Of a stretch of 64,000 nucleotides of DNA, positions 1 through 58,641 are shown piece by piece. The first letter of the stretch is position 1. Each line of letters starts with the position of its first letter. Under the pieces are notes generated by a model. It ran no database searches. It was not told the origin of the DNA and was given only the letters and a program-made list of their open reading frames with translations. This DNA is from a virus. The stretch is taken from positions 62,001 to 126,000 of the IMG/VR virus record IMGVR_UViG_3300032032_000001; one strand, given 5' to 3'. The translations under genes were made by a program, and so were the position numbers.

Positions 1-1
1 C

Positions 2-3000
2 GACAAGAAACGCGGCGAGGTTGTAAAGCTGGCCAAAGTATTGTCACGCGGGGCAGCCCCGGCGAACGATACTGAAGCGGCAAGTATAATTAAGGAAGCT
101 TACGCTGGTACCAAGCTGCTCCCTGACACAACCAAAATCACCCTGGGGTCAGCGTTTGACTCGGTAAATGGGGACGCTCTCCTGGCTACATCGTCTAAGT
201 TATTAGGCGTTAATAGGGGAGAGAGGGATGTTGATAACCGAGACTCTCTACGGTTTAAGGAGCTTTGGTCAATAAATGACCATATTCCGGAACGAATTCA
301 GAACTCTCAGCGCAGGATCAAATACAAGCTCGGAAACAATGTGGACCGGAGAGACAGCGTCAGATCTATTATCACGTCTGATATCTTCAACATCCCCATT
401 AAGACGTTCTTTACGTCAACGAGCCTGTCGCAGCAGACATCCCAGGTTAATCCTGTGGACATGATGGGCGGGTTTCTCCGTACGACAATCATGGGGCAAG
501 GCGGTATCGTGAGCGAAAACGCCGTGTCCGAAGACGCCAAGCTGATCGACTCTAGTTACCTAGGGTTTATTGATCCGGTACACACTCCTGAAGGAAAGAG
601 GTCTGGCATCAGTGGCCACCTCTCTCTTGGGGTAGAGAAGCACGGCACCACGCCAAAGATACAGGTGTACGACGTTAAGGAGAAAAAGTTCGCGGCACGG
701 AGCCCTGGAGAGCTTGTCGGGAAAGCGGTCGCGTTCCCTGATCAGTATTCTTTTAGTGGCAAAGCGCCCAAGGCTATCAGTGATCTGGTTACGGTAGTCA
801 GGAAGGATGGAGGCGACCCTGAAAAGATCAGCCCCTCCGAAGTCGATTACATCATAAAGACCCCTAAGCAGCTGTTCTCGATAACAGCTAACCTAGTGCC
901 GTTCCTTCCGTCGGATCAAGCCAACCGCGCCGGTATGGCCACCCGCCACTTAGAGCAGGCGATCTCATTAAAAGACCGTGAGGAGCCCTTGGTTCAGGTC
1001 ACATCCGGAAACCCTAGTGAGAAGTACAAGACCTGGGAGAAGATTGTGGGGTCTTTTACGAGCCACACAAGCCGCGTCTCCGGGACGGTTGAGACCGTCG
1101 GGAAGAACAAGATTGTGGTTCGCGGGAGCGACGGTGAGAAGCACGAGGTTCCCCTCTATGACAACTTCCCACTAAACGACAAGAAGGCCTTTATTTCAAG
1201 CACCCCAACGGTTGCAAAGGGGGACAAGGTTAAGGCCGGTCAAGCTGTGGCGGATACGAACTTCACTAAGAATGGGACGTTGGCGATGGGGACAAACCTA
1301 CGCGTCGCCTATCTACCATATAAGGGGTTAGTGTTTGAGGATGGTATCGTTATATCTGAGACCGCTTCAAATAAGCTTATCAGTGAGCACCTCCATAAAA
1401 ACAGGGCGTATGTCGAGAAATCCATGGGAGTTGGTCTGAAGAAGTTCAGGGCAAATTTCCCTGGGTACGTGACCGAGGATAACGCCGCAAAGCTCGATGA
1501 AGATGGCGTGATAAAGAAGGGTCAAAAAGTTGACCCAGGTGACGTATTAATGACAGTCCTGCAAAAGACGGAGCCCTCTAAGGAGCAGCTACTTCTTAAG
1601 GGGATCCATAAGTCACTAATAAGGCCCTACAAGAACAAGTCTGTGACTTGGGACAAACCGTATACTGGCGTCGTAACGGATGTTGTTAGGAATGGTCGCG
1701 AGATTGTTGCGTACGTCAAGACCGAGGAATCGGCAGATGTTGGCGATAAGCTTACTGGGAGACACGGTAACAAGGGTGTGATTACAGCCGTAGTTCCTGA
1801 TGAGGAAATGCCGAGGGACGCTGACGGCAACCCCGTCCAATTGATCTTAAATCCATCGGGGGTTCCTGGACGAATCAACCTGGGACAGGTTCTGGAGACC
1901 AGTCTGGGCAAGGTGGCTAAAAAGCGCGGGGAGCCTTATGCCGTTGAGAACTTTCAATCTAATGACAGCAAGAAAGTCGTTACCGTACGTGAGCATAAGC
2001 GCACCGTTAAAACTACAAGTGGTGACACTAAAGAAATCACCGTTAAAGAGCACACTAGGGAACTTGGTTACCAAGAAAGAGTTAAGCAGATTTTGGCCGA
2101 AGAGGGTGTGTCTGAGACAACTGAACTATTTGACCCCGAGACTGGAAAGAGTCTGGGAGAGGTACTGGTAGGCCAGCACTACACTCTTAAGTTAATGCAT
2201 CAGGTGGATAAGAAGCTTCGAGCAAGGGCGCATGGGTACGGGCACGACTATGATGCCAACCTCGTCCCTAAGGGCGGCGGGGAGTCCGGTGCTGCTCAGA
2301 GGTTTGGGGAACTAGGTCTATATGCAATGCTTGCACACGGCGCGACCTCAAATATACGAGAGGCACTGACCTACAAGAGCGATAAGGCGCAAGACGAAGT
2401 TTGGACAGCTGTGCAGACAGGGGCGATCTTACCGGCACCAAAATCCTCGTTCGCATATGAAAAGTTCCTTGCGTACATGCAGGGACTAGGCCTCAACGTG
2501 GAGAAGGAGGGCAACGGGTTAGTTGTCAGTCCTCTCACGGAAAAGCAGATTAAAGAAGCGTCTAACGGGGAGATCAAAGACGGAAGCAAGGTGATCAGAG
2601 GGAAAGACCTGAAGCCTGAAAAGGGCGGTCTTTTTGATGAGACCGTGACCGGAGGTCCCGGCGGGAAGCACTGGGCACATATGGTGCTTGGGATGTCCAT
2701 GCCCAACCCGATGTTTGAGAAGTCAGTCAGATCATTACTCGGTATCACCGGGAAGCAGTACGACGGCATTGTCGATGGCTCTCTGGGGTTTGATGAGAAC
2801 GGGGATGTTGTGCCAGCAGCCGATGGCATTCAGACGGGGCCCGAGGCATTAACGAGGGCGCTGGGTAGCATCAACGTAGATAAAGATTTAGCGAGCGCCA
2901 AGAAAGACATAAAAACAGCTCGTAGGAACAATTTGGATAAGCTGAACAAGAAGATCAAGTATCTTCTCATGCTTAAGAAAAATGGTCTTTCGCCAAAAGA

Positions 3001-5689
3001 GGCGTACACGACATCAGTTGTTCCGGTTCTACCCCCCGTATTCCGACCAATCACGGCTATGGAGGGCGGTGACTTAAACATCGATGGCACAAACATGCTT
3101 TACAGAGACATCGCCATCCTCAGCCAAAAGCTCAAAGAGTCCACCGGGGTCCTTCCCGAGGAAGCCATCTCCGCCCTTCGAGGCGACCTGTATGACGCTG
3201 TTGATGCGTTGATGGGGACATCCACGCCCTCTGAGTCGGCCACCATGACGGACGGGCAAGCCCGCCCACCCGGAATCCTCACCATCCTGTCCGGCAGGCA
3301 GTCGCCCAAGCAGAGCTTTTTTCATAAGCGCATCTTGGATCGAAAGCAGGACATTTCTATGCGGTCGGTGATTGTTCCCAACATGGATCTGCACTTGGAT
3401 GAAATCGGCCTTCCTAGAAAAGGGGCCATGAAAATATACAGACCATTTGTGGTGAAAGAGCTTGTTAGAATGGGGTACACGCCCCTTAGGGCGCGTGAGG
3501 AGATCGAGAAGAAAACGCCCCTTGCGGATAGAGCGCTTGAGGTTGCCGTAAAGAAGCGGCCCGTGTTCTTTAAGCGAGACCCTGTCCTGCATAAGTTTGG
3601 GATTATGGCCTTCCGCCCCAAGCTTCACGACGAATCATCTATTCATATCCACCCCCTGGTGACCGGCGGCTTTAACGCCGACTTTGACGGCGACACGATG
3701 GCTGTGTTTCTTCCTGTGTCCCAGGAGTCTATCGACGAAGCGGAAAAACTACTCCCGTCCAAGAACCTGTTTAACCCCGCCACTGGAAAGGTCATGTACC
3801 AGCCCACATTGGAGGGGCAGCTTGGACTGTTCCTGCTTACGCAGATGGGGAAGAATACCAAGAAGAGCTTTGGCTCGGAAAAGGAAGCGATAGCCTCTGC
3901 GAAAGCGGGGGACACCGCTATGTCTGACGTTGTTTCTGTTGGCGGGAAAAAGACTACGGCAGGTAGATTATTATTCAATAATGCGCTGCCCTCTAAAGTC
4001 CGTTCAGACAAGCTTCTTACTGATCCAGACATGGTTATGGGGAAGAAGAATCTCCAGGCAGTCCTTCGTGGCATTGCTACCAAGTCGCCAGCCGAGTTTC
4101 AGGTAGCGGTTGATAAGATTAAAGATCTTGGGTTTGGGCACGCTTACAATATCGGGTTCTCGTTCAACCTCGGAGACTTTGACGCGATGAGAGATCTTCG
4201 GGAAAAGAAGATGAAGGGGGCGCACGCTAAGGAGGCGGTTATCCGCAAGCAAGAGCGGATGAAGCTCATATCCCCGGAGGCCGCAGAAAAGAAGATCATA
4301 GATCTGTACACGGAGGTCACACAGGATTTATCCACAGAGGCGAAAAAGATCTTGGACAAGAAAGGCAACAAGTTGAGGACGATGGAGAAAGCTGGGGTGA
4401 AGCCCGCCTGGGCTCAGTTGCAGCAGATGCTTATTGGTCCGATGCTGTTGGAGAACGCTAAAGGGCGCGTCATCCCAGTGCCTGTTGATCGATCATACTC
4501 GGAAGGGTTGCGGTCATCCGACTATTGGGTTGCCTCCTCCGGCGCTCGAAAAGGCCTTATTGAAAAAGTCCAGTCTGTGCAAAAGCCTGGAGCTTTGAAC
4601 AAACAGCTTGCAAATACAATGATGTCGTACATCGTCACCGCAGATGACTGCGGGACAACTAAGGGCATCGCCCTAGATGCCGCTGACTCAGACCTTGTTG
4701 ATAGATTTACGGCTAAGCCTATAAGCGCTAAAGGGTTACGAGTTTCGGCCAACACCGCACTAACTCCTGCCCTAGTGTCACGGATAAAGAGCGCTAAGGT
4801 GTCTAAGATTGTCGTTAAGTCCCCTCTCAAGTGTGAGGCTAAAAAAGGGCTGTGCTCAAAGTGCTACGGGCTACAAGACAACGGACTCCCGATCTCAAAA
4901 GGTACGAATATTGGCGTTATAGCCGGTACCGCGCTGGGAGAGCGGGGGACCCAGTTGTCTATGAAAACCTTTCATACTGGTGGTGTCGCTGGCTCATCCG
5001 GCGGAGTCGTTGGTGGGATAGATCGCATTAGCCAACTACTCAAGATGCCAGCAACTCTCCCCAACGCTGCTGTTCTCTCCCCAGCAACCGCGACTGTTTC
5101 CAGTATCAAAGAAAGCCCCGTGGGTGGTTTTGATATGACAATCGGGAATGAGGATATTTACGTCCCTGCCGGGAGAACCCTGAAGGTAACTAAGGGCTCC
5201 AAGGTGAAGAAGGGGCAGCAGATTTCCAGTGGTGTAATTGACCCACGGGATCTTCTATCTAAAACCAACGTAGATACCGTACAGGCATACATCGCTGATG
5301 AGATTAATAGGGTTTATAAAGCAGAGGGCATTAAGCGCCGAAACATCGAAGTGGTGACTAAGGCGATAACTAATCTCGGCAGAGTAACTAACCCTGGCGG
5401 GTCTGATTTTATCAAAAATGACTACATCTCTATATCACACGCTAATGCCCTAAATAGATCTGGGAAGCTGAAGGAGCCGTTGGTGGTTGAGCCAACGCTT
5501 CGTGGAATTGAGACCCTTCCCCTAGACCAAACAACGGACTGGCTGGCAAGGCTTCAATACCGGAAGTTAAAGGAGACATTTATTAGGGCCGCCAACGAGG
5601 GCTGGGAATCTGATATACATGGAGTGCACCCAACCCCAGGCATCGCCTATTCGGCAGAGTTTGGGAAAGGTAAGGAGGGCCCCTACTGA
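2..5689 (+). CDS. Fused beta/beta-prime RNA polymerase polypeptide, 5' end outside the window
   Basis: Catalytic core of a multisubunit DNA-dependent RNA polymerase with beta and beta-prime parts in one chain. The frame is open to the left edge, so the N-terminal part of beta is missing; a TTG at 41 is only the first possible start. Numbered from that TTG, beta motifs come first: HTPEGKRSG near 190, GRHGNKGV near 573, then NPSGVPGRINLGQ and AAQRFGELGLYA. Beta-prime follows: LKPEKGGLFDE, RSVIVPNM, the catalytic NADFDGD (Asp1214, 1216 and 1218), the zinc site Cys1598/1605/1608 (CEAKKGLCSKCYG) and GTALGERGTQLSMKTFHTGG in the trigger-loop region. The N-terminal zinc-binding domain of bacterial beta-prime seems absent: LKPEKGGLFDE leads to HWAHMVL without the Cys cluster. 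Alpha, omega and sigma partners are not seen here. It directly precedes virion genes, so packaging in the virion is possible but inferred. Confidence 0.95.
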   Translation, partial: DKKRGEVVKLAKVLSRGAAPANDTEAASIIKEAYAGTKLLPDTTKITLGSAFDSVNGDALLATSSKLLGVNRGERDVDNRDSLRFKELWSINDHIPERIQNSQRRIKYKLGNNVDRRDSVRSIITSDIFNIPIKTFFTSTSLSQQTSQVNPVDMMGGFLRTTIMGQGGIVSENAVSEDAKLIDSSYLGFIDPVHTPEGKRSGISGHLSLGVEKHGTTPKIQVYDVKEKKFAARSPGELVGKAVAFPDQYSFSGKAPKAISDLVTVVRKDGGDPEKISPSEVDYIIKTPKQLFSITANLVPFLPSDQANRAGMATRHLEQAISLKDREEPLVQVTSGNPSEKYKTWEKIVGSFTSHTSRVSGTVETVGKNKIVVRGSDGEKHEVPLYDNFPLNDKKAFISSTPTVAKGDKVKAGQAVADTNFTKNGTLAMGTNLRVAYLPYKGLVFEDGIVISETASNKLISEHLHKNRAYVEKSMGVGLKKFRANFPGYVTEDNAAKLDEDGVIKKGQKVDPGDVLMTVLQKTEPSKEQLLLKGIHKSLIRPYKNKSVTWDKPYTGVVTDVVRNGREIVAYVKTEESADVGDKLTGRHGNKGVITAVVPDEEMPRDADGNPVQLILNPSGVPGRINLGQVLETSLGKVAKKRGEPYAVENFQSNDSKKVVTVREHKRTVKTTSGDTKEITVKEHTRELGYQERVKQILAEEGVSETTELFDPETGKSLGEVLVGQHYTLKLMHQVDKKLRARAHGYGHDYDANLVPKGGGESGAAQRFGELGLYAMLAHGATSNIREALTYKSDKAQDEVWTAVQTGAILPAPKSSFAYEKFLAYMQGLGLNVEKEGNGLVVSPLTEKQIKEASNGEIKDGSKVIRGKDLKPEKGGLFDETVTGGPGGKHWAHMVLGMSMPNPMFEKSVRSLLGITGKQYDGIVDGSLGFDENGDVVPAADGIQTGPEALTRALGSINVDKDLASAKKDIKTARRNNLDKLNKKIKYLLMLKKNGLSPKEAYTTSVVPVLPPVFRPITAMEGGDLNIDGTNMLYRDIAILSQKLKESTGVLPEEAISALRGDLYDAVDALMGTSTPSESATMTDGQARPPGILTILSGRQSPKQSFFHKRILDRKQDISMRSVIVPNMDLHLDEIGLPRKGAMKIYRPFVVKELVRMGYTPLRAREEIEKKTPLADRALEVAVKKRPVFFKRDPVLHKFGIMAFRPKLHDESSIHIHPLVTGGFNADFDGDTMAVFLPVSQESIDEAEKLLPSKNLFNPATGKVMYQPTLEGQLGLFLLTQMGKNTKKSFGSEKEAIASAKAGDTAMSDVVSVGGKKTTAGRLLFNNALPSKVRSDKLLTDPDMVMGKKNLQAVLRGIATKSPAEFQVAVDKIKDLGFGHAYNIGFSFNLGDFDAMRDLREKKMKGAHAKEAVIRKQERMKLISPEAAEKKIIDLYTEVTQDLSTEAKKILDKKGNKLRTMEKAGVKPAWAQLQQMLIGPMLLENAKGRVIPVPVDRSYSEGLRSSDYWVASSGARKGLIEKVQSVQKPGALNKQLANTMMSYIVTADDCGTTKGIALDAADSDLVDRFTAKPISAKGLRVSANTALTPALVSRIKSAKVSKIVVKSPLKCEAKKGLCSKCYGLQDNGLPISKGTNIGVIAGTALGERGTQLSMKTFHTGGVAGSSGGVVGGIDRISQLLKMPATLPNAAVLSPATATVSSIKESPVGGFDMTIGNEDIYVPAGRTLKVTKGSKVKKGQQISSGVIDPRDLLSKTNVDTVQAYIADEINRVYKAEGIKRRNIEVVTKAITNLGRVTNPGGSDFIKNDYISISHANALNRSGKLKEPLVVEPTLRGIETLPLDQTTDWLARLQYRKLKETFIRAANEGWESDIHGVHPTPGIAYSAEFGKGKEGPY

Positions 5690-7155
5690 TGGATGATCTA
5701 ACCAGCGCAAACCCGGAGGGGTCGTTTGAGGACTCATATACAAAAACAGGAGCCCAATCGGACGGGCCCGCAAGCATTCAGCTCGCTCAGATAACTAACG
5801 TTAACCCGGAAGAGTACACTGTCGATGTGATGACGACCTACACGCATAAGGCGTTGGTTGACCTCCCGTTCGCTTCGCCGTTATGCCACCGAGATCATCG
5901 CGGCGGCATGTACGCTATGCCGGAGAGAGACGCGTACTGTTACGTGTGCCAGTGCCAGGATGGGACATCTTTTGTCTTAGGGTTTATTAACAACCCCGTT
6001 ACCATAGTGCCTGAAGAGTACGCAGCCGTTGAGGGCTCAACAGCGGAACTGATAACGGAAACAGCAGACAAGGGACCAAGCTTTAAGGGCGCTCGTGGGC
6101 ACCTGGAGCCTGGGGATATTTTCCTGGGCACCCTGGACGGTAACAGCGTTATCGTTCGAAGGGGTGGGATGGTCCAAATCGGGTCTACGTCATTAGCGCA
6201 ACGCATCTATCTGCCGGTCGAGAACGTCATAAGAGATTACTTTCAGAGATACCAAGCAGTAAGCCCTGTAGGGGAGATCGACTGGGGGCACGCTATTTTA
6301 GTGGAGGGCGAGACGCCCACGCAACAGGGCGGGTATCTCGCTAAAGACCTAAAAGACGACAATATCCCCAGCGAGGTCTTAGAGGTCGCTGAGAAGACCC
6401 CTGTTCTTGTTAAGTACAATATTAAAGACCTGTGCCAAGAAGATGTCACTGAAGGCAAGTACACAGTTGAGCTTAGGGTTGGAAGGCTTACGGCGGAACA
6501 GCTTGATCCCGAAGAAGACCCTGAGCATGTGTTCGGTCAGGCGGACCACAAGGCGTCCTCGGACCCGAGAGTAGAAAAACCTGTCAAGGCGTCTTCTGGT
6601 GACAAGGGCATTATAAAAGAAGAAAAGGGCGTTCTAAGTTTCACGATATACCAGCATGATGATGGTGTAGATGACAAGGAACGCGTTAGGTACGTATTCC
6701 AACTTAACAGGGATGGTGATAATCTAATCTTTACGCGTGGAAATATTCACGCCGAAGTATCCCAGACCGTATATGCAAATGTCCGTGAAGGCATTAAGAT
6801 CGTGTACGGAGACAAGGGCGGTAGCAAGGAAACCAAGGAAAACAAACAGTCCATAATTGAATTATTACAGGATAATGATTTCAAGGCGTTTGTTAAGAAT
6901 ATGGTTATAGAGTGCATGGAGGGCTATCACCTAAAGTCCCCCAAAGAGGTTTACATCGAAGGAGAGGCTGAGGTGCAGCTAGGTAAAAAAGGACAAGGCG
7001 GCGCGGATCAATCGGTAGTTCTTTTGGACGATCTGGCAACTTGGCTTACCACAAGCTTTTCCTGCATGACCGCTTGGGGCCCCAGTGGACCTGTTATCAC
7101 ACCACCCACACAGTCGGACATTGCGTCAGCCAGTGTGAAGGCAAAGAAGGGGTAG
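5689..7155 (+). CDS. Baseplate spike / gpV-like candidate
   Basis: A 488-residue protein starting at the last base of the polymerase stop codon, with AGGAGG upstream. Residues about 25-115 look like the OB-fold domain of phage baseplate assembly proteins (gpV/gp5 type): ASIQLAQITNVNPEEYTVDV is followed by a conserved-looking segment of alternating hydrophobics (PLCHRDHRGGMYAMPERDAY) and VLGFINNPV. The middle is acidic and charged, and the C-terminal part (about 385-488) could be a spike or oligomerisation region. The order of OB fold then a beta-rich tail is typical of hub/spike proteins that pierce the host envelope. The assignment rests on pattern only. An unrelated OB-fold virion protein is the main alternative. 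Confidence 0.5.
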   Translation: MDDLTSANPEGSFEDSYTKTGAQSDGPASIQLAQITNVNPEEYTVDVMTTYTHKALVDLPFASPLCHRDHRGGMYAMPERDAYCYVCQCQDGTSFVLGFINNPVTIVPEEYAAVEGSTAELITETADKGPSFKGARGHLEPGDIFLGTLDGNSVIVRRGGMVQIGSTSLAQRIYLPVENVIRDYFQRYQAVSPVGEIDWGHAILVEGETPTQQGGYLAKDLKDDNIPSEVLEVAEKTPVLVKYNIKDLCQEDVTEGKYTVELRVGRLTAEQLDPEEDPEHVFGQADHKASSDPRVEKPVKASSGDKGIIKEEKGVLSFTIYQHDDGVDDKERVRYVFQLNRDGDNLIFTRGNIHAEVSQTVYANVREGIKIVYGDKGGSKETKENKQSIIELLQDNDFKAFVKNMVIECMEGYHLKSPKEVYIEGEAEVQLGKKGQGGADQSVVLLDDLATWLTTSFSCMTAWGPSGPVITPPTQSDIASASVKAKKG

Positions 7156-7727: not shown

Positions 7728-9704
7728 ATGGAACTAATTAGAAAATTGCAGGGACCAGCGTTTGAAAAAACAGCGGGCAAATTCCTGCTCGGGGATAACC
7801 CGAATACGTACGCAAGCGAGTTGATCGCACACCTGTACAAACAACACCCTTACTTGGGGCAGTATCAGGTGAACATCTCCATCCAGGGGCAAGACCAAAG
7901 CATGGGGTTCTTGTACGGGGTTTTTCTGGTTAGTCAGAATTCTGATGTCCCGCCCCCGAGCGGGCAGCAGCAGATGGGACAGGTCATTAGTCAGGGCCAG
8001 CCACCAGCGGACCCTAAAGAGAGCGTTAGAATACCCATTATCGTTGAGAATAAGAGAGCGTACTCCTACGACGTTTTCATTACTCCAGACGGAAGGTTTC
8101 TACCCCTCAGTGAGGAGCGGGTCGCTTCGGCAATGTTTGATTCCTCGCCGTACTCAGTGGCCCCGGCCCTGAAAGACACTGCTAATCCTTCAGCAGCGTC
8201 CCAAAACATCAGTCCAGAGATGCCTACGTCAGCGGACGGCTCAGCGGGTGGTGGTACCCCCCTAAGCAAGATGTCTTCCTTGGATTTCGTGAGAATCTCT
8301 AAGGAAAGTGTGAATGACTTCCTGAACAAGATCGCGGTTGATCAGACCCTTGTTGACGCAGCGTCTATTAATTCTAGCTTCGCCGAGGCTCTCACTAAAC
8401 TAGCGTCAGCCACCCCCGAAGAGGCCGCTGAAGAAAGCGCTGATACGATTGGCGATTTTGATGCGGCTGTTATCTCGAAGGTCTCTGGTGGATATCGCGT
8501 AAAGACAGCGGTAGCTAACGGGAACTTTACTAACGAGATCTTTATTGAGAACAAGAACGCAGAAACAATCCCAGTGGATCTTCGCCAAGCCATCATTAAG
8601 CACGGATCGGTTTTATTATCCGGTAATAATGATGAACTTCTTGGCGTCCTGCCTACCTATGGCCTTGAGTCTGTAGTTGATTCTGGGGTCTATTCTGTCA
8701 TCAATAAGCACGGGAGTGCCCAACGGGCAGCAATTATTACGGACGTAATATCCTTGAGCGGCAAGAGCATGGGCGTCAACCTTGTGGTTGGTAAGTCCGG
8801 TGCCGCAATCCAGGAGAAAGTCGCCGGTGTCCAGTGCGGAGAATTGAACTTCTCTGAGCTGGCTGGCGGGAATCCTCATGGTGATGGCGTCTTTCTTTTT
8901 AAGTCTGCTAACGCTGTGTCCCCACCTGTTGAGGTTAAGCACGCAGTTCTCACGCAGGGTAGTGCGCCTGAGTTTATCTGTGACCACCCGATGCTTGGTA
9001 ATATTACGGTCAAGACCGCGAATGTTGTCAGGCCTACACAGGAAACCGATAACTCCTTCTTAGTCCCTAGTGATACCGTGTTCCTGCCTCTTGAGTTTGG
9101 GGCTAGATACGGAGAAGAGATTGACTCCGTAGAAAAGATCGCCAGCCGAAGAGATGCTATCAATAAGGTTAGGATCGTATCTAACGGATCTGAGTTCTCC
9201 TTTTCCGGGAAGCCCGTTGAGCATCTTGAGAAGAACGCGAATCTCAATTCCGAAGACACCCTTTTGCGTATTGGCCTGCTTGGGGACTCCTCAGAGGGAG
9301 CGCTGAAGAAATTAGCTGCGGCATCCCGAGGGGAAGAGGTAACGTTTGTTCCGAGTAATAGAATTATTAACGATTTACCGGGGTCCGACGCTGACGAGGA
9401 AATCGCTAATATTGCAAATATTATCAGACTAGATTTGGTAAAGGAGGCCGCTGCGCTATCTGGGGCAGACACCGTGGACTCAGTATTATCGCTTAATTTT
9501 ATTACCCCGGAGAATGTTCAGGGGTATATTGACGCACTACCAACTTTTGAGGAGTCTTCGTCGAAACTTGCTGAACTACTTGTTGGGGTTCGGCTCGGTT
9601 TATCTGATGTTCCTGAGGCAGCGGTATCTTCTGCGCTTCGTGGAATGGAGCGTGCAGTCCAAGGGCTCAAGAAGCTCCAAATCAGGTCAAATGCGACGAT
9701 TTAA
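7728..9704 (+). CDS. Large hypothetical virion-type protein
   Basis: A 658-residue protein with AGGAG before the ATG. I do not recognise the family. The N-terminus has FEKTAGKFLLGDNP; residues 35-75 look beta-rich. It contains several short K-x-A motifs (EKTAG, TKLAS, EKIAS, KKLAAAS) that recur across the head-gene region. No transmembrane segment, signal peptide or enzymatic motif is visible. Its position among structural genes suggests a virion protein. A portal of divergent sequence cannot be excluded but nothing specific supports it. Confidence 0.85.
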   Translation: MELIRKLQGPAFEKTAGKFLLGDNPNTYASELIAHLYKQHPYLGQYQVNISIQGQDQSMGFLYGVFLVSQNSDVPPPSGQQQMGQVISQGQPPADPKESVRIPIIVENKRAYSYDVFITPDGRFLPLSEERVASAMFDSSPYSVAPALKDTANPSAASQNISPEMPTSADGSAGGGTPLSKMSSLDFVRISKESVNDFLNKIAVDQTLVDAASINSSFAEALTKLASATPEEAAEESADTIGDFDAAVISKVSGGYRVKTAVANGNFTNEIFIENKNAETIPVDLRQAIIKHGSVLLSGNNDELLGVLPTYGLESVVDSGVYSVINKHGSAQRAAIITDVISLSGKSMGVNLVVGKSGAAIQEKVAGVQCGELNFSELAGGNPHGDGVFLFKSANAVSPPVEVKHAVLTQGSAPEFICDHPMLGNITVKTANVVRPTQETDNSFLVPSDTVFLPLEFGARYGEEIDSVEKIASRRDAINKVRIVSNGSEFSFSGKPVEHLEKNANLNSEDTLLRIGLLGDSSEGALKKLAAASRGEEVTFVPSNRIINDLPGSDADEEIANIANIIRLDLVKEAAALSGADTVDSVLSLNFITPENVQGYIDALPTFEESSSKLAELLVGVRLGLSDVPEAAVSSALRGMERAVQGLKKLQIRSNATI

Positions 9705-11571: not shown

Positions 11572-12180
11572 ATGGATAACAAAGAACTCAAAAAATCTGC
11601 CTTAGCCCAAACGCTAAAAGAGAAGCTCTCAGCGGCTGTCCAGGCGGGGAACCCTATGCAGGCCAAGCCCACACCGAATATGGGTAAATTGCAGCAAGAC
11701 CCGAAGATTCAACAAGCCGTAGCTGAGGCCAAAAAGATGAATAAGGGGGACCTGAAAGCTGGCGTTAAAAACATGATGGCCCAAAACACCCAGGCTAAAA
11801 ACACCCAGGGCACGCCGCCTGCGCCAGCAGCGCAACCGGCACCAGCAGCGCAACCAGCAGCGCCAATGGGAAGCGCCCAGGCGGCGACACAGGGTATGCA
11901 ACCCGCTCCTCCGCCTCCCGCCCCGCCCCAGCAGGCTATCAAAAAGCCTCCTGTAGCTCTCGCAGCTGGAGCGGCACAGCCCGCTCCTCCAACAGAGGAT
12001 CAGAGGAAAGAGCAAGCTAAAACTGAGCATACCCAAAGGGCGTTAGTAGGTAATACTGCCCCGGACCCACAGCAGGCCGCTATTAAAAGACAGAAAAGGT
12101 TCACCCGAGGAGGGGGAAATTTTCAGGCACGGCTAGATAGGGCCCGGGCAAGAACAGCGCAGGGCACGGAGACACCATAA
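11572..12180 (+). CDS. Low-complexity Ala/Pro/Gln-rich protein
   Basis: 202 residues. A short helical N-terminus (ELKKSALAQTLKEKL) is followed by long disordered Ala-Pro-Gln stretches, including a tandem APAAQP repeat encoded around 11820-11865, and a basic C-terminus (KRQKRFTRGG). Probably an unstructured linker, scaffold-like or DNA-associated virion protein. Its stop overlaps the start of the helicase gene by one base (TAATG). Confidence 0.75.
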   Translation: MDNKELKKSALAQTLKEKLSAAVQAGNPMQAKPTPNMGKLQQDPKIQQAVAEAKKMNKGDLKAGVKNMMAQNTQAKNTQGTPPAPAAQPAPAAQPAAPMGSAQAATQGMQPAPPPPAPPQQAIKKPPVALAAGAAQPAPPTEDQRKEQAKTEHTQRALVGNTAPDPQQAAIKRQKRFTRGGGNFQARLDRARARTAQGTETP

Positions 12181-14000
12181 TGAGCCTGGGCGACTACCTC
12201 ATAAAATCCGCCGCTGCGGACGTTGGCAAGGAGAAGAAGCCTCACGGCACCGGTATCCCTGCCATGAAGGAGTGGTTCGCCCCATACCCGCACCAAAAGA
12301 GAGCCATTGACCGACTGTTCTCCAACAAGGGCAAGATGATTCTGGCCCACGAGATGGGGACCGGAAAAACCGCAGCGTCTATCTACGGCTTTGAGCGCCT
12401 CCGTCACGAAGGGAAAGCAAAGAAAGCCTTGGTGGTGTGCCCCTCAGGGCTTAGAGCAAACTTCGCTGAGGGCGGAGTACAGAAATTCACGACAAGTTCT
12501 GTCGAGGTCGTTGGTTCAGCGTCTGAGGTCTCCAAGAAGGCTGGGTATGTTAGGCCCGGTAGCGAAGGTGGCGCAGCGTACACGATTGTCAGCTACGCGC
12601 AGTTCAGGCGAGACCCTGAAGGATTCATGAAAAGAACGGGGGCTGACACCCTCATCCTTGATGAGTTCCACAAGACGCGTAATGAGCGAGCCTCCACGTT
12701 TAAGGCAGCGCTCGCCGCCCGCAGGTACGCCCATAACTTCATGGGGCTTACAGCATCACTGATTAATAACAATCCAGGCGAAGTGGCTACGCTGATGACT
12801 ATCTCTGAGAAGAACAGAGATATGTCTCCAACAGAATTTCGGAAAAGGTTCACCAAGACCATTGGCTACACAAAAGGATTTGGTGGCGGAAAAAAGAAAA
12901 TCAAAGGCTTTAAGAACGTAGAGGAACTTAAAGCTCGTACCCAGCCAAAGATCGACCATGTCCGGACAGGCGACCTGAAGGGCAAAACTATGCCCAGGAA
13001 AGATGTCCAAAACATTGATGTTGAGATGTCCCCCAAGCAGTACCAGCTGTACCAACTGGCATTAGACAAGCTCGGGCCCCTGAAAGAACGGGTGCTTCGG
13101 AGCGACCCAAACGTTTCAGTCAGAGAGGCGGAGTTCCTGTTCGCGCAAATATCTGCCGCTAGACAGGTCGCAAACTCAGTCCACACGGGACGCAAGGACA
13201 TCACTCCTGAGAAATCGTCCAGAATCACCCCGAAGGTGAACAGGCTGCTGACGGACACCGAGTCTCATTTAGCTTCAAAGCCGGATAACAAAGTTGTCCT
13301 CTATTCTAACCTTGTTCGGGGAGGGGTTGATGTCCTCTCTGCTGGGCTGACGGCTCGTGGCATTGATCACGCACTGTTTGTAGGCAAGGGCAAGGAGGTC
13401 GGTGGCAGGAAGGTGACTGGGATAACCAGACAGAAGGGCGTTCAGGAGTACAAGGACGGGAAGAAGCGAGTAATTGTTCTGAGTGGTGCGGGCGCTGAAG
13501 GCCTGGACCTTAAGAACTCCACTGCTTTTTACGCCCTGGATGGACACTTCAACCCGCAGCGTATTCTACAGGCAGAAGCGCGTGCAAGACGGCTGGGCGG
13601 CCAGAAGCATCGTGAAGAAAAGAACCGGGCAGTGGACACGCGTAGGTATAGGAGCGTGGTCCCGAAGTCGTCCCACCCAGGGATCATCGGCAAGATGTTC
13701 GGAAGAAAGGTGCCTAAGACAACGGACCAGTGGATGTACGATGTCGCAGGCCGGAAGCATAAAGAGCAGGAACAGTTCTACAAGGCCTTCCGAGAGCCGC
13801 CTAAGCATATTTATAAGTATAGAGACAAGAACGGGAGGGTTCGATATGTATACCCCAAAAAGCAGCAAAAGCAGCAGAGTAAGCCAGGAATCTTTTCTAG
13901 ACTCTTCTCCAGAAAGCCCACCGTCCCAACTGCTGAGCAAGTTGGGCGTGCGACAGGTACCCAGCTTGCGATTAGCGCAAACAGACCAACGGTGTCTTAA
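12180..14000 (+). CDS. SNF2-type superfamily 2 helicase/ATPase
   Basis: 606 residues with a full set of SF2/SNF2 motifs. Motif Q/I region YPHQKRAIDRLF and HEMGTGKTA (about 57-65, Walker A); VVCPSGLR (Ia); TLILDEFHK (II, DEFH rather than DEAH); GLTAS (III); NKVVLYSNLVRGG (IV); SGAGAEGLDL (V); QAEARARRLGG (VI). Such enzymes translocate on double-stranded DNA using ATP. The N-terminus GDYLIKSAAAD resembles short N-terminal segments of neighbouring virion-type proteins. Lying inside the structural block just before terminase, it may act in packaging or enter the cell with the DNA; that role is inferred. Confidence 0.93.
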   Translation: MSLGDYLIKSAAADVGKEKKPHGTGIPAMKEWFAPYPHQKRAIDRLFSNKGKMILAHEMGTGKTAASIYGFERLRHEGKAKKALVVCPSGLRANFAEGGVQKFTTSSVEVVGSASEVSKKAGYVRPGSEGGAAYTIVSYAQFRRDPEGFMKRTGADTLILDEFHKTRNERASTFKAALAARRYAHNFMGLTASLINNNPGEVATLMTISEKNRDMSPTEFRKRFTKTIGYTKGFGGGKKKIKGFKNVEELKARTQPKIDHVRTGDLKGKTMPRKDVQNIDVEMSPKQYQLYQLALDKLGPLKERVLRSDPNVSVREAEFLFAQISAARQVANSVHTGRKDITPEKSSRITPKVNRLLTDTESHLASKPDNKVVLYSNLVRGGVDVLSAGLTARGIDHALFVGKGKEVGGRKVTGITRQKGVQEYKDGKKRVIVLSGAGAEGLDLKNSTAFYALDGHFNPQRILQAEARARRLGGQKHREEKNRAVDTRRYRSVVPKSSHPGIIGKMFGRKVPKTTDQWMYDVAGRKHKEQEQFYKAFREPPKHIYKYRDKNGRVRYVYPKKQQKQQSKPGIFSRLFSRKPTVPTAEQVGRATGTQLAISANRPTVS

Positions 14001-14130: not shown

Positions 14131-14425
14131 TTATAGCAGTACCGGTCTTCTTATTGATTGTTATCTTGGCTCTTGGGATGAAATCTTTGACTAACTGGCC
14201 AATCAATTGTTTATTATGGTGTGATATTGGTGGCCACAATTTTAACACGTAGGTATTTTCTTCTGTATGAGTGTATTCGATAAAATCATTACCGACTGCT
14301 CTAGAAAGAGAGCCAGCAAGCCGATGGATGGTGTCTTTAGCTATGTCGCTTCCGTATGAAATAGCAGAGGAAAGCCCGGATCGGTCGTTGTTTCCTACTG
14401 AGTTTGTTGGGTCTTTCTTCAACAT
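14111..14425 (-). CDS. Possible antisense gene overlapping the terminase start
   Basis: 104-residue frame on the opposite strand to all neighbours. It fills the 200-base gap before terminase but overlaps the terminase 5' end by about 80 bases. The composition looks protein-like, ending in beta-type sequence (RAKITINKKTGTAIITLRRR). GGGAGGGG directly precedes the ATG at 14425, closer than usual. No family recognised. It could be spurious; the alternative is that terminase begins further downstream or that this gap is non-coding. Confidence 0.4.
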   Translation of the reverse strand: MLKKDPTNSVGNNDRSGLSSAISYGSDIAKDTIHRLAGSLSRAVGNDFIEYTHTEENTYVLKLWPPISHHNKQLIGQLVKDFIPRAKITINKKTGTAIITLRRR

Positions 14426-15968
14426 CCCCTCCCTGGGTGAGCTTGAGAAGTTCTCCTTTAGGGGGCGTAGGTACCTTGTGCCTATCTACGACACGCCCGC
14501 CAAGAGGCTTCTGCTTCAGTGCGGTCGTCAGGTTGAGAAAAGTACGACCCTGGGTAATATTATCCTAACATACTCAATGCTACGCAGACACTTTAGATCA
14601 CTGTTTGTCAGCCCGACGCAGCAGCAGACTGAGACATTCTCTAGGGATAGAATTGCTACACCTACCGAGCTTTCGTCAACCCTTAAAGCGTTTACTCGTG
14701 GGGATGGGACTAAAGACAACGTATTGTACAAGAAGTATGTAACCGGTTCGGATATTACGCTGAGATACGCCTTCCTACACGCTGATCGTGTTCGTGGTAT
14801 CTCCGCAGACATGCTCTTGCTAGATGAGATCCAGGACATTTTGACAGATGTGATTCCTGTTATTGAGGAGTCCCTGTCCCACTCGCCGTTTAAGATTCTT
14901 AGGTATTCCGGCACGCCCAAAAGCCTGGACAATACGATCAGCTACTACTGGAATCAGTTTTCCACCCAAAACGAATGGGTAATCCCCTGCGAGGCGTGCA
15001 ATAAGTGGAACGTTATTGGTGAGAACAGTATTGGCCCCGTAGGGCTTATTTGCGACAAGTGCGGCAAGTCTATAGATCCTGATCATCAAAGAGCGCAATG
15101 GGCATCCATGAGATCTCCGGAGTGGCTTACTAATCCGCCTGTGAATACTCCGTTTGAGGGTTACAGGATCCCCCAGGTGATCGCCCCGTGGATAAACTGG
15201 AACGACATTCTAGACAAACAAAAGCGCTACAGCAGGGCGCAGTTCTTTAACGAGGTTCTTGGGCTTGGCTACGACTCTGGTGAAAAGCCGATTACCCGAG
15301 ACCTTCTGATTGAACACTGTTCCAATGAACCGAATAACCTAGAAACAGCACTAAAGCTCAATGCGCGAGGAACCGGGGCCTGCTGCATGGGGATTGACTG
15401 GGGAACGGGAGAAAACACCTACACCGTCCTTACTGTTGGGAAATACTTCGGTAATAAGTTTAGATATATCTACTTCAAGCAGTTTTCTGGACCTGAGGCT
15501 GAGCCAGAAGTGATGATGAAAAACATTGTCAACTTAGTGCATCAATTTAAATGCGAATGTATCGGCGTTGACTACGGCGGTGGGTTTGACCGCAACGATA
15601 AGCTGATCCGAACTTTTGGGATAACACGTATCGCTAGATATCAGTATGTAAATACGCGGCGCATATACTTCGACAAAACGCTTGCAAGGTTTATGGTTAA
15701 TAGAACCGAAGCGTTGATGTCGGTCATTAATGCGTTAAACAGGAAAGATACATTCATGCTCCCCAGGTGGGATACTTTTGAGACGCCCTTTGCAAGCGAC
15801 ATGCTTTCTGTATTTACTGAGTACAACGAGGCCCGAAGAACGACTATTATTAATAAGACTCCTGGGACTACGGACGATACATTGCACGCAATGACTTACT
15901 GTTTCCTAGCGTCTATGATAAAGCACCCAAGACCTGATATATTAGCACCGAGTGGAGACAAAGACTAG
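14343..15968 (+). CDS. terL: Terminase large subunit
   Basis: The DNA-packaging motor ATPase and nuclease. The ATPase part has a Walker A-like CGRQVEKST, a Walker B MLLLDEIQD and a following SGTP coupling motif. A zinc ribbon (CEAC...CDKCG) sits between the ATPase and nuclease halves. The RNase H-like nuclease has MGIDWGTGENTY, CIGVDYGGGFDRND and a final TDDTLHAM with acidic residues for metal binding. Length (about 541 residues) fits the family. The start is uncertain: ATG 14343 is used, with ATG 14328 and GTG 14271 in frame; none has a strong ribosome-binding site. Confidence 0.93.
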   Translation: MSLPYEIAEESPDRSLFPTEFVGSFFNIPSLGELEKFSFRGRRYLVPIYDTPAKRLLLQCGRQVEKSTTLGNIILTYSMLRRHFRSLFVSPTQQQTETFSRDRIATPTELSSTLKAFTRGDGTKDNVLYKKYVTGSDITLRYAFLHADRVRGISADMLLLDEIQDILTDVIPVIEESLSHSPFKILRYSGTPKSLDNTISYYWNQFSTQNEWVIPCEACNKWNVIGENSIGPVGLICDKCGKSIDPDHQRAQWASMRSPEWLTNPPVNTPFEGYRIPQVIAPWINWNDILDKQKRYSRAQFFNEVLGLGYDSGEKPITRDLLIEHCSNEPNNLETALKLNARGTGACCMGIDWGTGENTYTVLTVGKYFGNKFRYIYFKQFSGPEAEPEVMMKNIVNLVHQFKCECIGVDYGGGFDRNDKLIRTFGITRIARYQYVNTRRIYFDKTLARFMVNRTEALMSVINALNRKDTFMLPRWDTFETPFASDMLSVFTEYNEARRTTIINKTPGTTDDTLHAMTYCFLASMIKHPRPDILAPSGDKD

Positions 15969-26472: not shown

Positions 26473-26901
26473 ATGGCACAGATTCCAAATAAGAAGCTTG
26501 AGATTCTGAATTTCGGTCAACCAGTTCCGCTCGCGGACAACGGGACCGAAGTTATTAAAATCCCAGACTCACACCTTTACACGAACTTCTCCCTTACCTT
26601 GGGCACGCTTACCAATGTAGCTGTCACAGTTTCGGGCCTTGTTTCTGGATCAACTGAGCCTGGGGTCGCCGCCCCCGGAGCCAACGTAGGCTCTAAAGAG
26701 ATTGTGCTCATCGGCGGATCCACAACGAACAACGAAGTTGATGTAAAGCCTCAGAAGAACCAAACGTCCACCTGGGCCCTAAGCACTCCTTTTCCGGGAG
26801 GTGTAGAGGTCACAGTTGTAAACACTACCGGTGGAAATGTCGTGCTCAATTTAGCAGTGATGATGTCTGGGTCTCTGTATAGCTCGGGGAGGAACTCATG
26901 A
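26473..26901 (+). CDS. Hypothetical beta-rich protein
   Basis: 142 residues with GGAG upstream. Mostly beta-type, Gly/Thr/Val-rich, with no charged clusters. Its size and style suit a small head-fibre, decoration or neck protein. Family not recognised. Confidence 0.7.
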   Translation: MAQIPNKKLEILNFGQPVPLADNGTEVIKIPDSHLYTNFSLTLGTLTNVAVTVSGLVSGSTEPGVAAPGANVGSKEIVLIGGSTTNNEVDVKPQKNQTSTWALSTPFPGGVEVTVVNTTGGNVVLNLAVMMSGSLYSSGRNS

Positions 26902-42130: not shown

Positions 42131-43207
42131 CTATGTTTTCTTCCTCGGGGAAATGTTTCTTTTCCTCCGCTGATTAACACTCTCCTTAGCGACTGCGCCG
42201 CTAGAACCTGTATATAACTTTAGGGCAGCAGGATCTCCCTCCACTCTTACAGAGTCTGGGGTTAAGATTATCCTTATCCCCGTTAGGTTGATCACTAAAT
42301 CCTCCCCGTACCCTGAGCATTTTGTCAAGGCTGGGAACCACTGCCTAAGTTGTCCAATTTCATATTGCAGGGTGCCTACGTGTGCAGGCTTAGTTGTTGG
42401 TGACTCTTGTTTAGAGTCTACCCTGAATCTATGTATCGCCTCTCTTTCAAAGCGTGTGTAGTTTATACCTGTCAGTCTGGATACAGTCTGACTCACTCTC
42501 TCTGCTTCAGAGTTAGCTCTTACTGAGTCAGTCTTTCTACCGACTTCTTTTTCCAGAGCTAACGTCAGTCTCACAAGATCAGCACTTCTTCTCTTAATGT
42601 CCTCTGCTTGTTCTCTGAACCATGCAAATTCCTTAAGAGCATCATCTAGCTTATCCTGAGTATCTAACTTGTAGTCAGTAGTTCCACTACATCTTTCTTC
42701 TCTCATATCGTGTATTTTACGAATTAATTCTTCCGATTCCAATACAAGTGTTTCCTGATCAGAAAGTAACTTTCCTAAGTCTACTTCGTCTTTTTCAACA
42801 GTACCACCTAACATCTCTACTCTAGAATTAAATATAGAGAAGTCAGTTTTACTGAGAGAAAAGTTCTGTAGGCAAGATCTAGGTTTTGCTACCAGTACTT
42901 GAGGGATACTTCTACCTATATAGGGTCTTTGACTTCTGTAAGAAGCTAACCCTAAAACAAGTGTAGCTGTTTCAGCATCCATTACTCTGTAAGGCATGGA
43001 TACTTGGACATGGTCGTTCTCAGTTAATTTCCAGAGATACACATGTCCCTTCTCTATAGGGGTAAGGTCATCATCGTAAAAAGCTATCTCTTCAGGATCA
43101 GCTGGGTCACAGAATAAGTTCTGCGAGTACTCAGAGGTACGTTTTGTGATGAGACCTTTGATTAGTATAGGTGGGTTTGCCCTATCGTTCACAAACCGTA
43201 ATTCCAT
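42131..43207 (-). CDS. Hypothetical protein with coiled coil, flanked by operators
   Basis: 358 residues. N-terminal beta-rich domain (1-130), central charged helical region (about 150-240) likely to form a coiled coil, and a C-terminal domain ending in basic residues (RRKRNISPRKK). Base and codon use appear more AT-rich than neighbours (many TCT, AGA and TTT codons), which may signal separate origin. It has operators on both sides, so it is either regulated by them or codes for the factor that binds them. No family recognised. Confidence 0.8.
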   Translation of the reverse strand: MELRFVNDRANPPILIKGLITKRTSEYSQNLFCDPADPEEIAFYDDDLTPIEKGHVYLWKLTENDHVQVSMPYRVMDAETATLVLGLASYRSQRPYIGRSIPQVLVAKPRSCLQNFSLSKTDFSIFNSRVEMLGGTVEKDEVDLGKLLSDQETLVLESEELIRKIHDMREERCSGTTDYKLDTQDKLDDALKEFAWFREQAEDIKRRSADLVRLTLALEKEVGRKTDSVRANSEAERVSQTVSRLTGINYTRFEREAIHRFRVDSKQESPTTKPAHVGTLQYEIGQLRQWFPALTKCSGYGEDLVINLTGIRIILTPDSVRVEGDPAALKLYTGSSGAVAKESVNQRRKRNISPRKKT

Positions 43208-43266: not shown

Positions 43267-43282
43267 CCCCTTATACCACAAA
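43267..43282 (-). promoter_or_regulatory. Promoter motif candidate upstream of the operator-flanked gene
   Basis: TTTGTGGTATAAGGGG on the - strand. It resembles TTGTTGGTATAAGC found twice elsewhere upstream of isolated genes. Lies between operators D and E. Confidence 0.45.
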
Positions 43283-54605: not shown

Positions 54606-54677
54606 ATTCCTCCGGATATCTAAGACACTAAATTGTGACTCAATCTGCTTATACCTCATAAGGTCAACCTCTTGCGG

Positions 54678-55146: not shown

Positions 55147-55326
55147 TTACTGTCTAATAATGGGGTCCCATAGATATATTTCATAACACGCACTCTCGAT
55201 TATTAACGAGTATACACCGGTGTTTGTGGACATCTGTATATCAACAACGAAACCTGTAGAGTCCCCAGTAATTTCAAACCCTTTGTTGGTATAAGCCAGA
55301 TGAAGGCAAATAACTGTCTTCACCAC
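55147..55326 (-). CDS. Possible small beta-type protein
   Basis: About 59 residues from GTG 55326. Protein-like beta composition (GFEITGDSTGFVVDIQM; GVYSLIIESACYEIYLWD). No ribosome-binding site is visible, and the 5' part coincides with the + strand promoter motif at 55283, so the frame may be fortuitous. Confidence 0.4.
   Translation of the reverse strand: MVKTVICLHLAYTNKGFEITGDSTGFVVDIQMSTNTGVYSLIIESACYEIYLWDPIIRQ
55283..55296 (+). promoter_or_regulatory. Promoter motif candidate
   Basis: TTGTTGGTATAAGC, identical to 57982-57995. It lies 48 bases before the 55345 gene. Related sequences occur on the - strand near 43267 and 54650. Confidence 0.55.
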
Positions 55327-57981: not shown

Positions 57982-57995
57982 TTGTTGGTATAAGC
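57982..57995 (+). promoter_or_regulatory. Promoter motif candidate
   Basis: TTGTTGGTATAAGC, same 14 bases as at 55283-55296. Lies 34 bases before the 58030 gene and diverges from the reductase gene. Confidence 0.55.
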
Positions 57996-58029: not shown

Positions 58030-58641
58030 ATGTATCCAAAGGAAAGAATTCTACGCGAGTTTCTTCGCAATGATTCAGGAGCGCTTAGTAAAAACTATAT
58101 AGACATTCTTCGCAATTTCTACGGAGAAGACTTAGCAAGGCTAAGTTTTATCCATAGTATTGAGAGACTTGTCAACACTGGTCAACTCTTTAAACAAGAA
58201 GACTGCTTAGCGGAAGGCTACAGGCCTTACGCGGTGCTCAATACTGTGGGGAATAGATCCCTGTGTGAGAGTATGTTCTACACAACCGGCCCGTACATTG
58301 TACACCAACGCTCGCCAATCATTGCTATGATAGCGGGGGCTAACTCGTTGTTCGTAGAATCAGGGAACGCCAAGAAGGAGAATCTCCCAAGCATGGCCAC
58401 ACCCGTTGCCTATAATGCCGGAAGACTAGGGTCGGCACTGGACCTGTTTCTAAGTGCGGCTCCCTCTGAAGAGGAGCGCAGCGCCCTGCAAAACGCTGCG
58501 CAGAACATCCACAAGGCATATATTAGTAAGGTCTACGACCGATTATCCGTGCAGGAGTATACTAATCTCGATCTACTAATATCCTCTGTTGATGAGGATG
58601 CGTTATTTGCGCGTGATAATTGGAGAGCATGGATTAGTTAG
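58030..58641 (+). CDS. Hypothetical protein
   Basis: 203 residues with AGGAGG upstream. Mostly helical, with LREFLRNDSGALSKNYIDIL at the N-terminus resembling a short DNA- or protein-binding helical bundle. No family recognised. Own promoter motif; may be regulated separately from neighbours. Confidence 0.75.
   Translation: MYPKERILREFLRNDSGALSKNYIDILRNFYGEDLARLSFIHSIERLVNTGQLFKQEDCLAEGYRPYAVLNTVGNRSLCESMFYTTGPYIVHQRSPIIAMIAGANSLFVESGNAKKENLPSMATPVAYNAGRLGSALDLFLSAAPSEEERSALQNAAQNIHKAYISKVYDRLSVQEYTNLDLLISSVDEDALFARDNWRAWIS

Follow-up and report, generated by a model that had tools for sequence, protein, structure and literature searches.

What kind of RNA polymerase (RNAP) does a phage encode when the motifs of both catalytic subunits, β and β′, follow each other in one chain, and with which partner would such an enzyme find its promoters? 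The window, i.e. the whole stretch of 64,000 nucleotides analysed here, covers positions 62001-126000 of a 148,364-bp virus record, and its position 2 is a mere window edge that cuts the open reading frame (ORF) of this RNAP. The complete ORF encodes 2089 aa and occupies positions 61420-67689 of the record (L002:6420-12689), starting 580 nt upstream of the window with an ATG and a GGAGG ribosome site. Residues 195-2089 lie at window positions 1-5689 on the plus strand, and the frame runs uninterrupted from position 2 to a TGA at 5689; the stop or frameshift that an earlier note on this DNA had named as evidence against a fused chain does not occur. A second two-barrel RNAP is not indicated, since the record yielded a single DxDGD protein.

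Along the chain, Pfam domains occur in the order Rpb2_3, Rpb2_6, Rpb2_7, Rpb1_1 (second half only), Rpb1_2, Rpb1_3 and Rpb1_5, and PHROG matches are likewise ordered β then β′; E-values are 8.6e-58 for Rpb2_6 and 1e-112 for a bacterial β′ from the PDB. Landmarks were checked in an alignment of 46 distinct fused sequences against E. coli RpoB plus RpoC (plus strand, window positions throughout). The β fork and rifampicin-pocket region (residues 331-362) lies at 410-505 and carries Gly at H526 and Ser at D516, and therefore the fused RNAP is predicted to be rifampicin-resistant. It is followed by the β double-psi barrel domain (Rpb2_6; 1070-2236, including GDKLTGRHGNKG at 1742-1777) and by the β/β′ junction (residues ~1000-1050; 2417-2569), which is one unbroken frame in all fused members. 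At 2639-2677 the N-terminal zinc-binding domain (ZBD) of β′ is missing, GLFD..TGGPGGKHW being joined directly, and its cysteines C70, C72, C85 and C88, part of the bacterial core, all fall in a gap in 46/46 sequences; the domain is also missing in the more distant fused members L267-L322 and L308. The β′ clamp helices (residues 1225-1262) are found at 3092-3205, where the bacterial σ contacts R275, E295 and R297 are not conserved. The catalytic NADFDGD (residues 1419-1425) is located at 3674-3694, the bridge helix, in place in the alignment, at 4517-4624, the C-terminal zinc site (C1744, C1805, C1812, C1815) at 4649-4864 and the trigger loop, GERGTQLSMKTFHTGGVAGS, at 4940-4999. D460/D462/D464, trigger-loop H936 and β K1065/K1073/R1106 are invariant in all 46 sequences, and the C-terminal zinc cysteines C814/C888/C895/C898 are retained in 46, 46, 46 and 43 of them. 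Finally, an AlphaFold2 model of residues 930-2089 (pLDDT 87, pTM 0.83) superposes over its full length on bacterial β′ with a TM-score of 0.83. The earlier note had described a single phage-borne chain with β motifs ahead of β′ motifs, an intact NADFDGD centre, a seemingly deleted N-terminal and a present C-terminal zinc site, and a form close to that of cellular enzymes; each of these points is borne out by the single ORF and by the alignment, in which all catalytic landmarks find their E. coli counterparts.

The fused gene is not restricted to this record. One scan of IMG/VR yielded 72 loci, 53 of which hold a single ORF of 2040-2230 aa (the 46 distinct sequences), while most of the others are longer through inteins or are cut by contig ends; in later scans 60 of the 109 loci examined were fused, the remainder being split, truncated or broken by single stops. 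Split enzymes are found in Salmonella phage Arash and Vibrio phage D69, which carry β plus the N-terminal part of β′ in one gene and the C-terminal part of β′ in another, the cut falling after the β′ barrel at residue ~1510 (residues 1507-1513 of the present chain, 3938-3958 in the window, plus strand); an additional cut near residue 1130-1140 occurs in several related enzymes. The phylogeny that the earlier note had proposed was inferred with FastTree, with bacteria as only outgroup, and all phage enzymes form one clade outside the bacterial RNAPs (support 1.000). The split enzymes form a subgroup in the β′ tree (0.96) and in the tree of both halves (0.97), in which they are nested among fused lineages, whereas β alone gives a single origin of splitting a support of only 0.06. 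In these trees of long branches and with no archaeal outgroup, fusion is likely to be the ancestral state of the phage clade. The earlier note's fused phage RNAP is confirmed, but far from being confined to one unusual phage it is a member of a large clade that matches the mReC RNAPs (PMC7481178).

Several members of the wider set deserve separate mention. A very distant fused RNAP of 2329 aa (L308, contig 3300031722_000008; 27% identity) is placed nearest to bacteria in the trees. Relatives including L048, L053, L057-L059, L065, L068-L071 and L081 carry in-frame insertions of ~320-515 aa at the β GDK-GRHGNKG motif, at NADFDGD or near the fork loop, and matches to LAGLIDADG_3, together with weak ones to Intein_splicing, mark some of the active-centre insertions as inteins. 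In L291 (3300000172_000001) and L327 (3300035698_022190), in-frame TGA codons stand at several tryptophan positions conserved in the family, and a full-length chain of ~2020 aa results when TGA is translated as Trp; these phages therefore seem to use a recoded TGA. Besides these, phage-labelled records such as OR844998.1, OR846602.1, CAKLQH020000005.1 and AFYI01000006.1, among others, appear to hold ordinary bacterial rpoB/rpoC and probably represent contaminants or prophage-carrying bacterial contigs.

The surroundings of the gene are those of a phage. A portal homolog recurs near the RNAP in ~142 loci, and a baseplate-spike-like gene (5689-7155, plus strand; weak gp5-type match), which overlaps the RNAP stop, has homologs near the RNAP in ~105 loci, directly downstream of it in the loci checked. 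We had considered this gene as an additional RNAP subunit, but rejected that candidate in view of its weak baseplate-spike matches. No family match was found for the protein of 658 aa at 7728-9704, which is conserved near the RNAP in ~104 loci. Further downstream on the plus strand follow a SNF2-type helicase (12180-14000), syntenic with Arash gp217, and the large subunit of terminase (14271-15968), which marks the context as phage.

A search for α, ω and sigma-like genes, likewise proposed in the earlier note, led to a possible partner. Family and profile searches revealed a divergent σ70-family protein throughout the clade, including Arash gp10, and also at the left end of the present record, where the C-terminal 62 residues are encoded at positions 1-195 (E 4e-14) and the contig end truncates the rest; Pfam Sigma70_r2 alone missed this copy, which was detected by the family profile. 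The family is present in 35/37 RNAP-bearing records of at least 150 kb and in 12/18 of 100-150 kb, and is absent from the genome of the distant fused L308 (G043) and from record G008. Its profile matches solved σ70 factors at 2.5e-15, Sigma70_r3 is matched by 10/10 members, regions 2, 3 and 4 occur in order, and the predicted structure has a σ fold, with σ factors making up 50/50 among the matches listed. Two parts of the protein are altered: region 2.2 is devoid of the QEGN core-binding motif of rpoD, and region 2.3-2.4 is devoid of its two tryptophans. The change in region 2.2 and the loss of the clamp residues R275, E295 and R297, i.e. a parallel divergence of two co-occurring proteins, suggest that phage σ and fused core form a private pair. 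By contrast with the bacterial α2ββ′ω core, neither α nor ω was found in any of the 21 records tested (0/21 for each, the records being incomplete), while controls were positive in 13-14 of 14. A second, more canonical σ is encoded by G005, G012, G015, G017, G021 and Arash (gp196), and in G021 it nearly retains the region 2.2 motif (AEGN). This protein may steer host RNAP, in which case part of the phage would still use the host enzyme.

Candidate promoters for such a pair were sought between the genes. The top-ranked intergenic 8-mer is CTTATACC/GGTATAAG in the present record, in the relative G003 and in Arash, with intergenic counts of GGTATAAG of 9 versus 0.1, 10 versus 0.1 and 21 versus 0.6, respectively. 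The motif is enriched in G013 too, and variants occur in G017 (CTTATCCC) and G016 (CTTATGCC); it is not universal, as Vibrio phage D69 possesses core and σ yet little enrichment of GGTATAAG. Of the 12 sites in the present record, 10 fall between genes, a compartment that makes up 5.5% of the DNA (binomial ~1e-11), and one of the 12, within a tRNA anticodon loop, is probably spurious. The sense orientation is GGTATAAG: 27/31 Arash sites in this orientation are closely followed by a ribosome site and start, as against 10/31 in reverse, and the T4 and T5 stretches have no GGTATAAG sites in such a position. Promoter-like sites in the window are situated at 55288-55295 (plus strand, upstream of a plus-strand gene), 57987-57994 (plus strand, upstream of the gene at 58030), 54648-54655 (minus strand) and 43270-43277 (minus strand, 63 nt upstream of the minus-strand gene 42131-43207). 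A copy of CTTATACC 41 nt upstream of the RNAP gene was rejected as its promoter, because the sense orientation faces away, towards a small ORF preceded by a ribosome site of its own. Repeats of another kind were observed in Arash, where five near-identical dispersed units of ~150 bp (26632-26781, 66379-66528, 100135-100284, 138482-138631 and 173256-173405), flanked by inverted AAACGTTGTAACC arms, could possibly represent an origin, a terminator or a mobile unit.

Taken together, these observations are best read as an α/ω-free holoenzyme of fused core and phage σ, a reading that we consider fairly probable. One polypeptide carries the entire catalytic core of an RNAP of the cellular, two-barrel multisubunit type, in which β is linked head to tail to a β′ that has lost its zinc-binding domain. 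As α and ω genes were not found and a single chain houses both barrels, the covalent link probably replaces the α dimer as assembly platform. The phage σ70-family protein, whose core-binding and -10-reading regions are altered, is likely to dock on the altered clamp and to direct the core to phage promoters, for which GGTATAAG is the best candidate. We infer that the fused enzyme is active, that σ binds it and that GGTATAAG is its promoter; if σ indeed pairs with the core, the result would be a nearly host-independent transcription machine of two proteins only.

Different readings can be given of when this enzyme acts and of what σ is for. RNAP and σ could be late products, synthesised together with the virion proteins and packaged, which after injection would read early genes from GGTATAAG promoters, a scenario that we regard as quite possible without calling it probable. 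Virion RNAPs have precedents in phiKZ and P23-45; the RNAP gene is situated between the portal and the baseplate-spike-like gene, overlapping the latter, and the σ gene overlaps the one that opens a long operon on the plus strand, in which a homolog of a structural protein of Arash is also encoded. GGTATAAG sites in Arash lie mostly ahead of small or metabolic genes on the minus strand, whereas (C)TAAAATA, a motif read by eye, is seen at several virion genes of the plus strand and at the RNAP piece with the β′ C-terminus. The annotation of Arash, however, labels neither RNAP nor σ as structural, nor does it so label portal or capsid. The more specific proposition that a virion-packaged holoenzyme of β-β′ chain and σ, free of α and ω, is injected with the DNA and fires early GGTATAAG promoters appears somewhat unlikely to us.

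Alternatively, a non-virion RNAP could be made during infection and read middle and late genes, while host RNAP reads the early ones, a scheme that has a real chance of being correct but falls short of the probable. Most phages begin with host RNAP, and some relatives carry a canonical σ able to steer it; on the other hand, the clade-specific motif is located at early-type genes, and the RNAP gene belongs to the virion gene block and would therefore be made late. Another view holds that the σ-like protein retargets host RNAP, as gp55 of T4 does, and that the fused RNAP works without σ. Although in other large phages σ usually occurs without an RNAP (PMC7598289), and two of four additional σ-bearing records showed no RNAP (fragments of 95 and 111 kb, however), this view is unlikely given the near-universal co-occurrence of σ and RNAP and the loss of the bacterial core-binding motif from region 2.2. 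Finally, a chimeric contig or contaminating bacterial rpoBC, the refutation that the earlier note had named and that plain bacterial rpoBC in some database phage records might encourage, has a negligible probability and is rejected, since many independent contigs contain the one-chain gene next to the same phage-type neighbours, at identities as low as ~35%, since this gene is only ~30% identical to bacteria and forms a separate clade at full support, and since 0/80 bacterial loci are fused.

According to reviews, phages with their own multisubunit RNAP are without σ homologs and σ-encoding jumbo phages are without RNAP, and it is an unsolved problem how α-less phage cores stay together (PMC7598289, PMC13282480). 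The σ of this RNAP-bearing clade breaks the former rule, and covalent fusion is suggested as an answer to the latter problem. The split enzymes, nested among fused lineages in two of the three trees, hint at secondary cutting of one-chain enzymes, which bears on the origin of phiKZ-type RNAPs. If the packaged two-protein holoenzyme were true, it would be the simplest known σ-dependent cellular-type RNAP and, judged by the accessible literature, the first such phage RNAP with a true σ sequence homolog; the culturable relative Arash opens the system to laboratory testing.

Among known systems, the closest are the mReC RNAPs (Weinheimer & Aylward 2020, PMC7481178), which likewise are β and β′ of caudoviruses alignable to cellular RNAP, form a clade apart from bacteria and come from the same kind of source, IMG/VR; the present enzyme, too, has β/β′ homologs with NADxDGD on a caudovirus contig, and the fused 2044-aa L277 derives from sample 3300017989, the source of two mReC example contigs. 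The main text on the published set of 97 contigs treats β and β′ as two subunits, mentions no fusion in the mReC clade, raising it for crAssphage only, and contains nothing on ZBD loss, σ or promoters, although an earlier report of the fusion elsewhere is possible. New here is the phage σ70-family partner across the RNAP-bearing clade, which has no detectable α or ω. The split RNAPs of Arash and of Vibrio phages D69, D148 and D181 show homology along the full length of the chain (the large piece being ~31% identical), and Arash also agrees with the present record in the σ family (as does D69), in GGTATAAG and in the arrangement of genes around portal, RNAP, helicase and terminase; they differ in consisting of two proteins, cut at ~1510, with others of the lineage cut again at ~1130-1140. 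The phiKZ/AR9-type RNAPs of jumbo phages share the two-barrel phage enzyme without α and ω, but are far more diverged, come in four to five pieces where the present enzyme is a single ORF, and have no recognisable σ sequence homolog (PMC7598289, PMC13282480); spans of PHROG families suggest that their β′ is cut near the same place. YonO, crAss-like gp66 and P23-45 gp64/gp96 similarly unite two barrels in one phage-encoded chain, but these and the single-chain phage RNAPs of PMC10770324 are far more diverged, and the mReC study detected no homology between crAss RNAP and the COG models (PMC7481178), whereas the present chain matches Rpb2_6 and keeps all bacterial active-centre landmarks. Lastly, a natural β-β′ fusion of ~2900 aa is found in the RpoBC of Helicobacter and Wolinella (PMC1557499), but that enzyme is bacterial, while the chain described here, which has ~2090 aa and lacks the ZBD and E. 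coli-type insertions, is borne by a phage.
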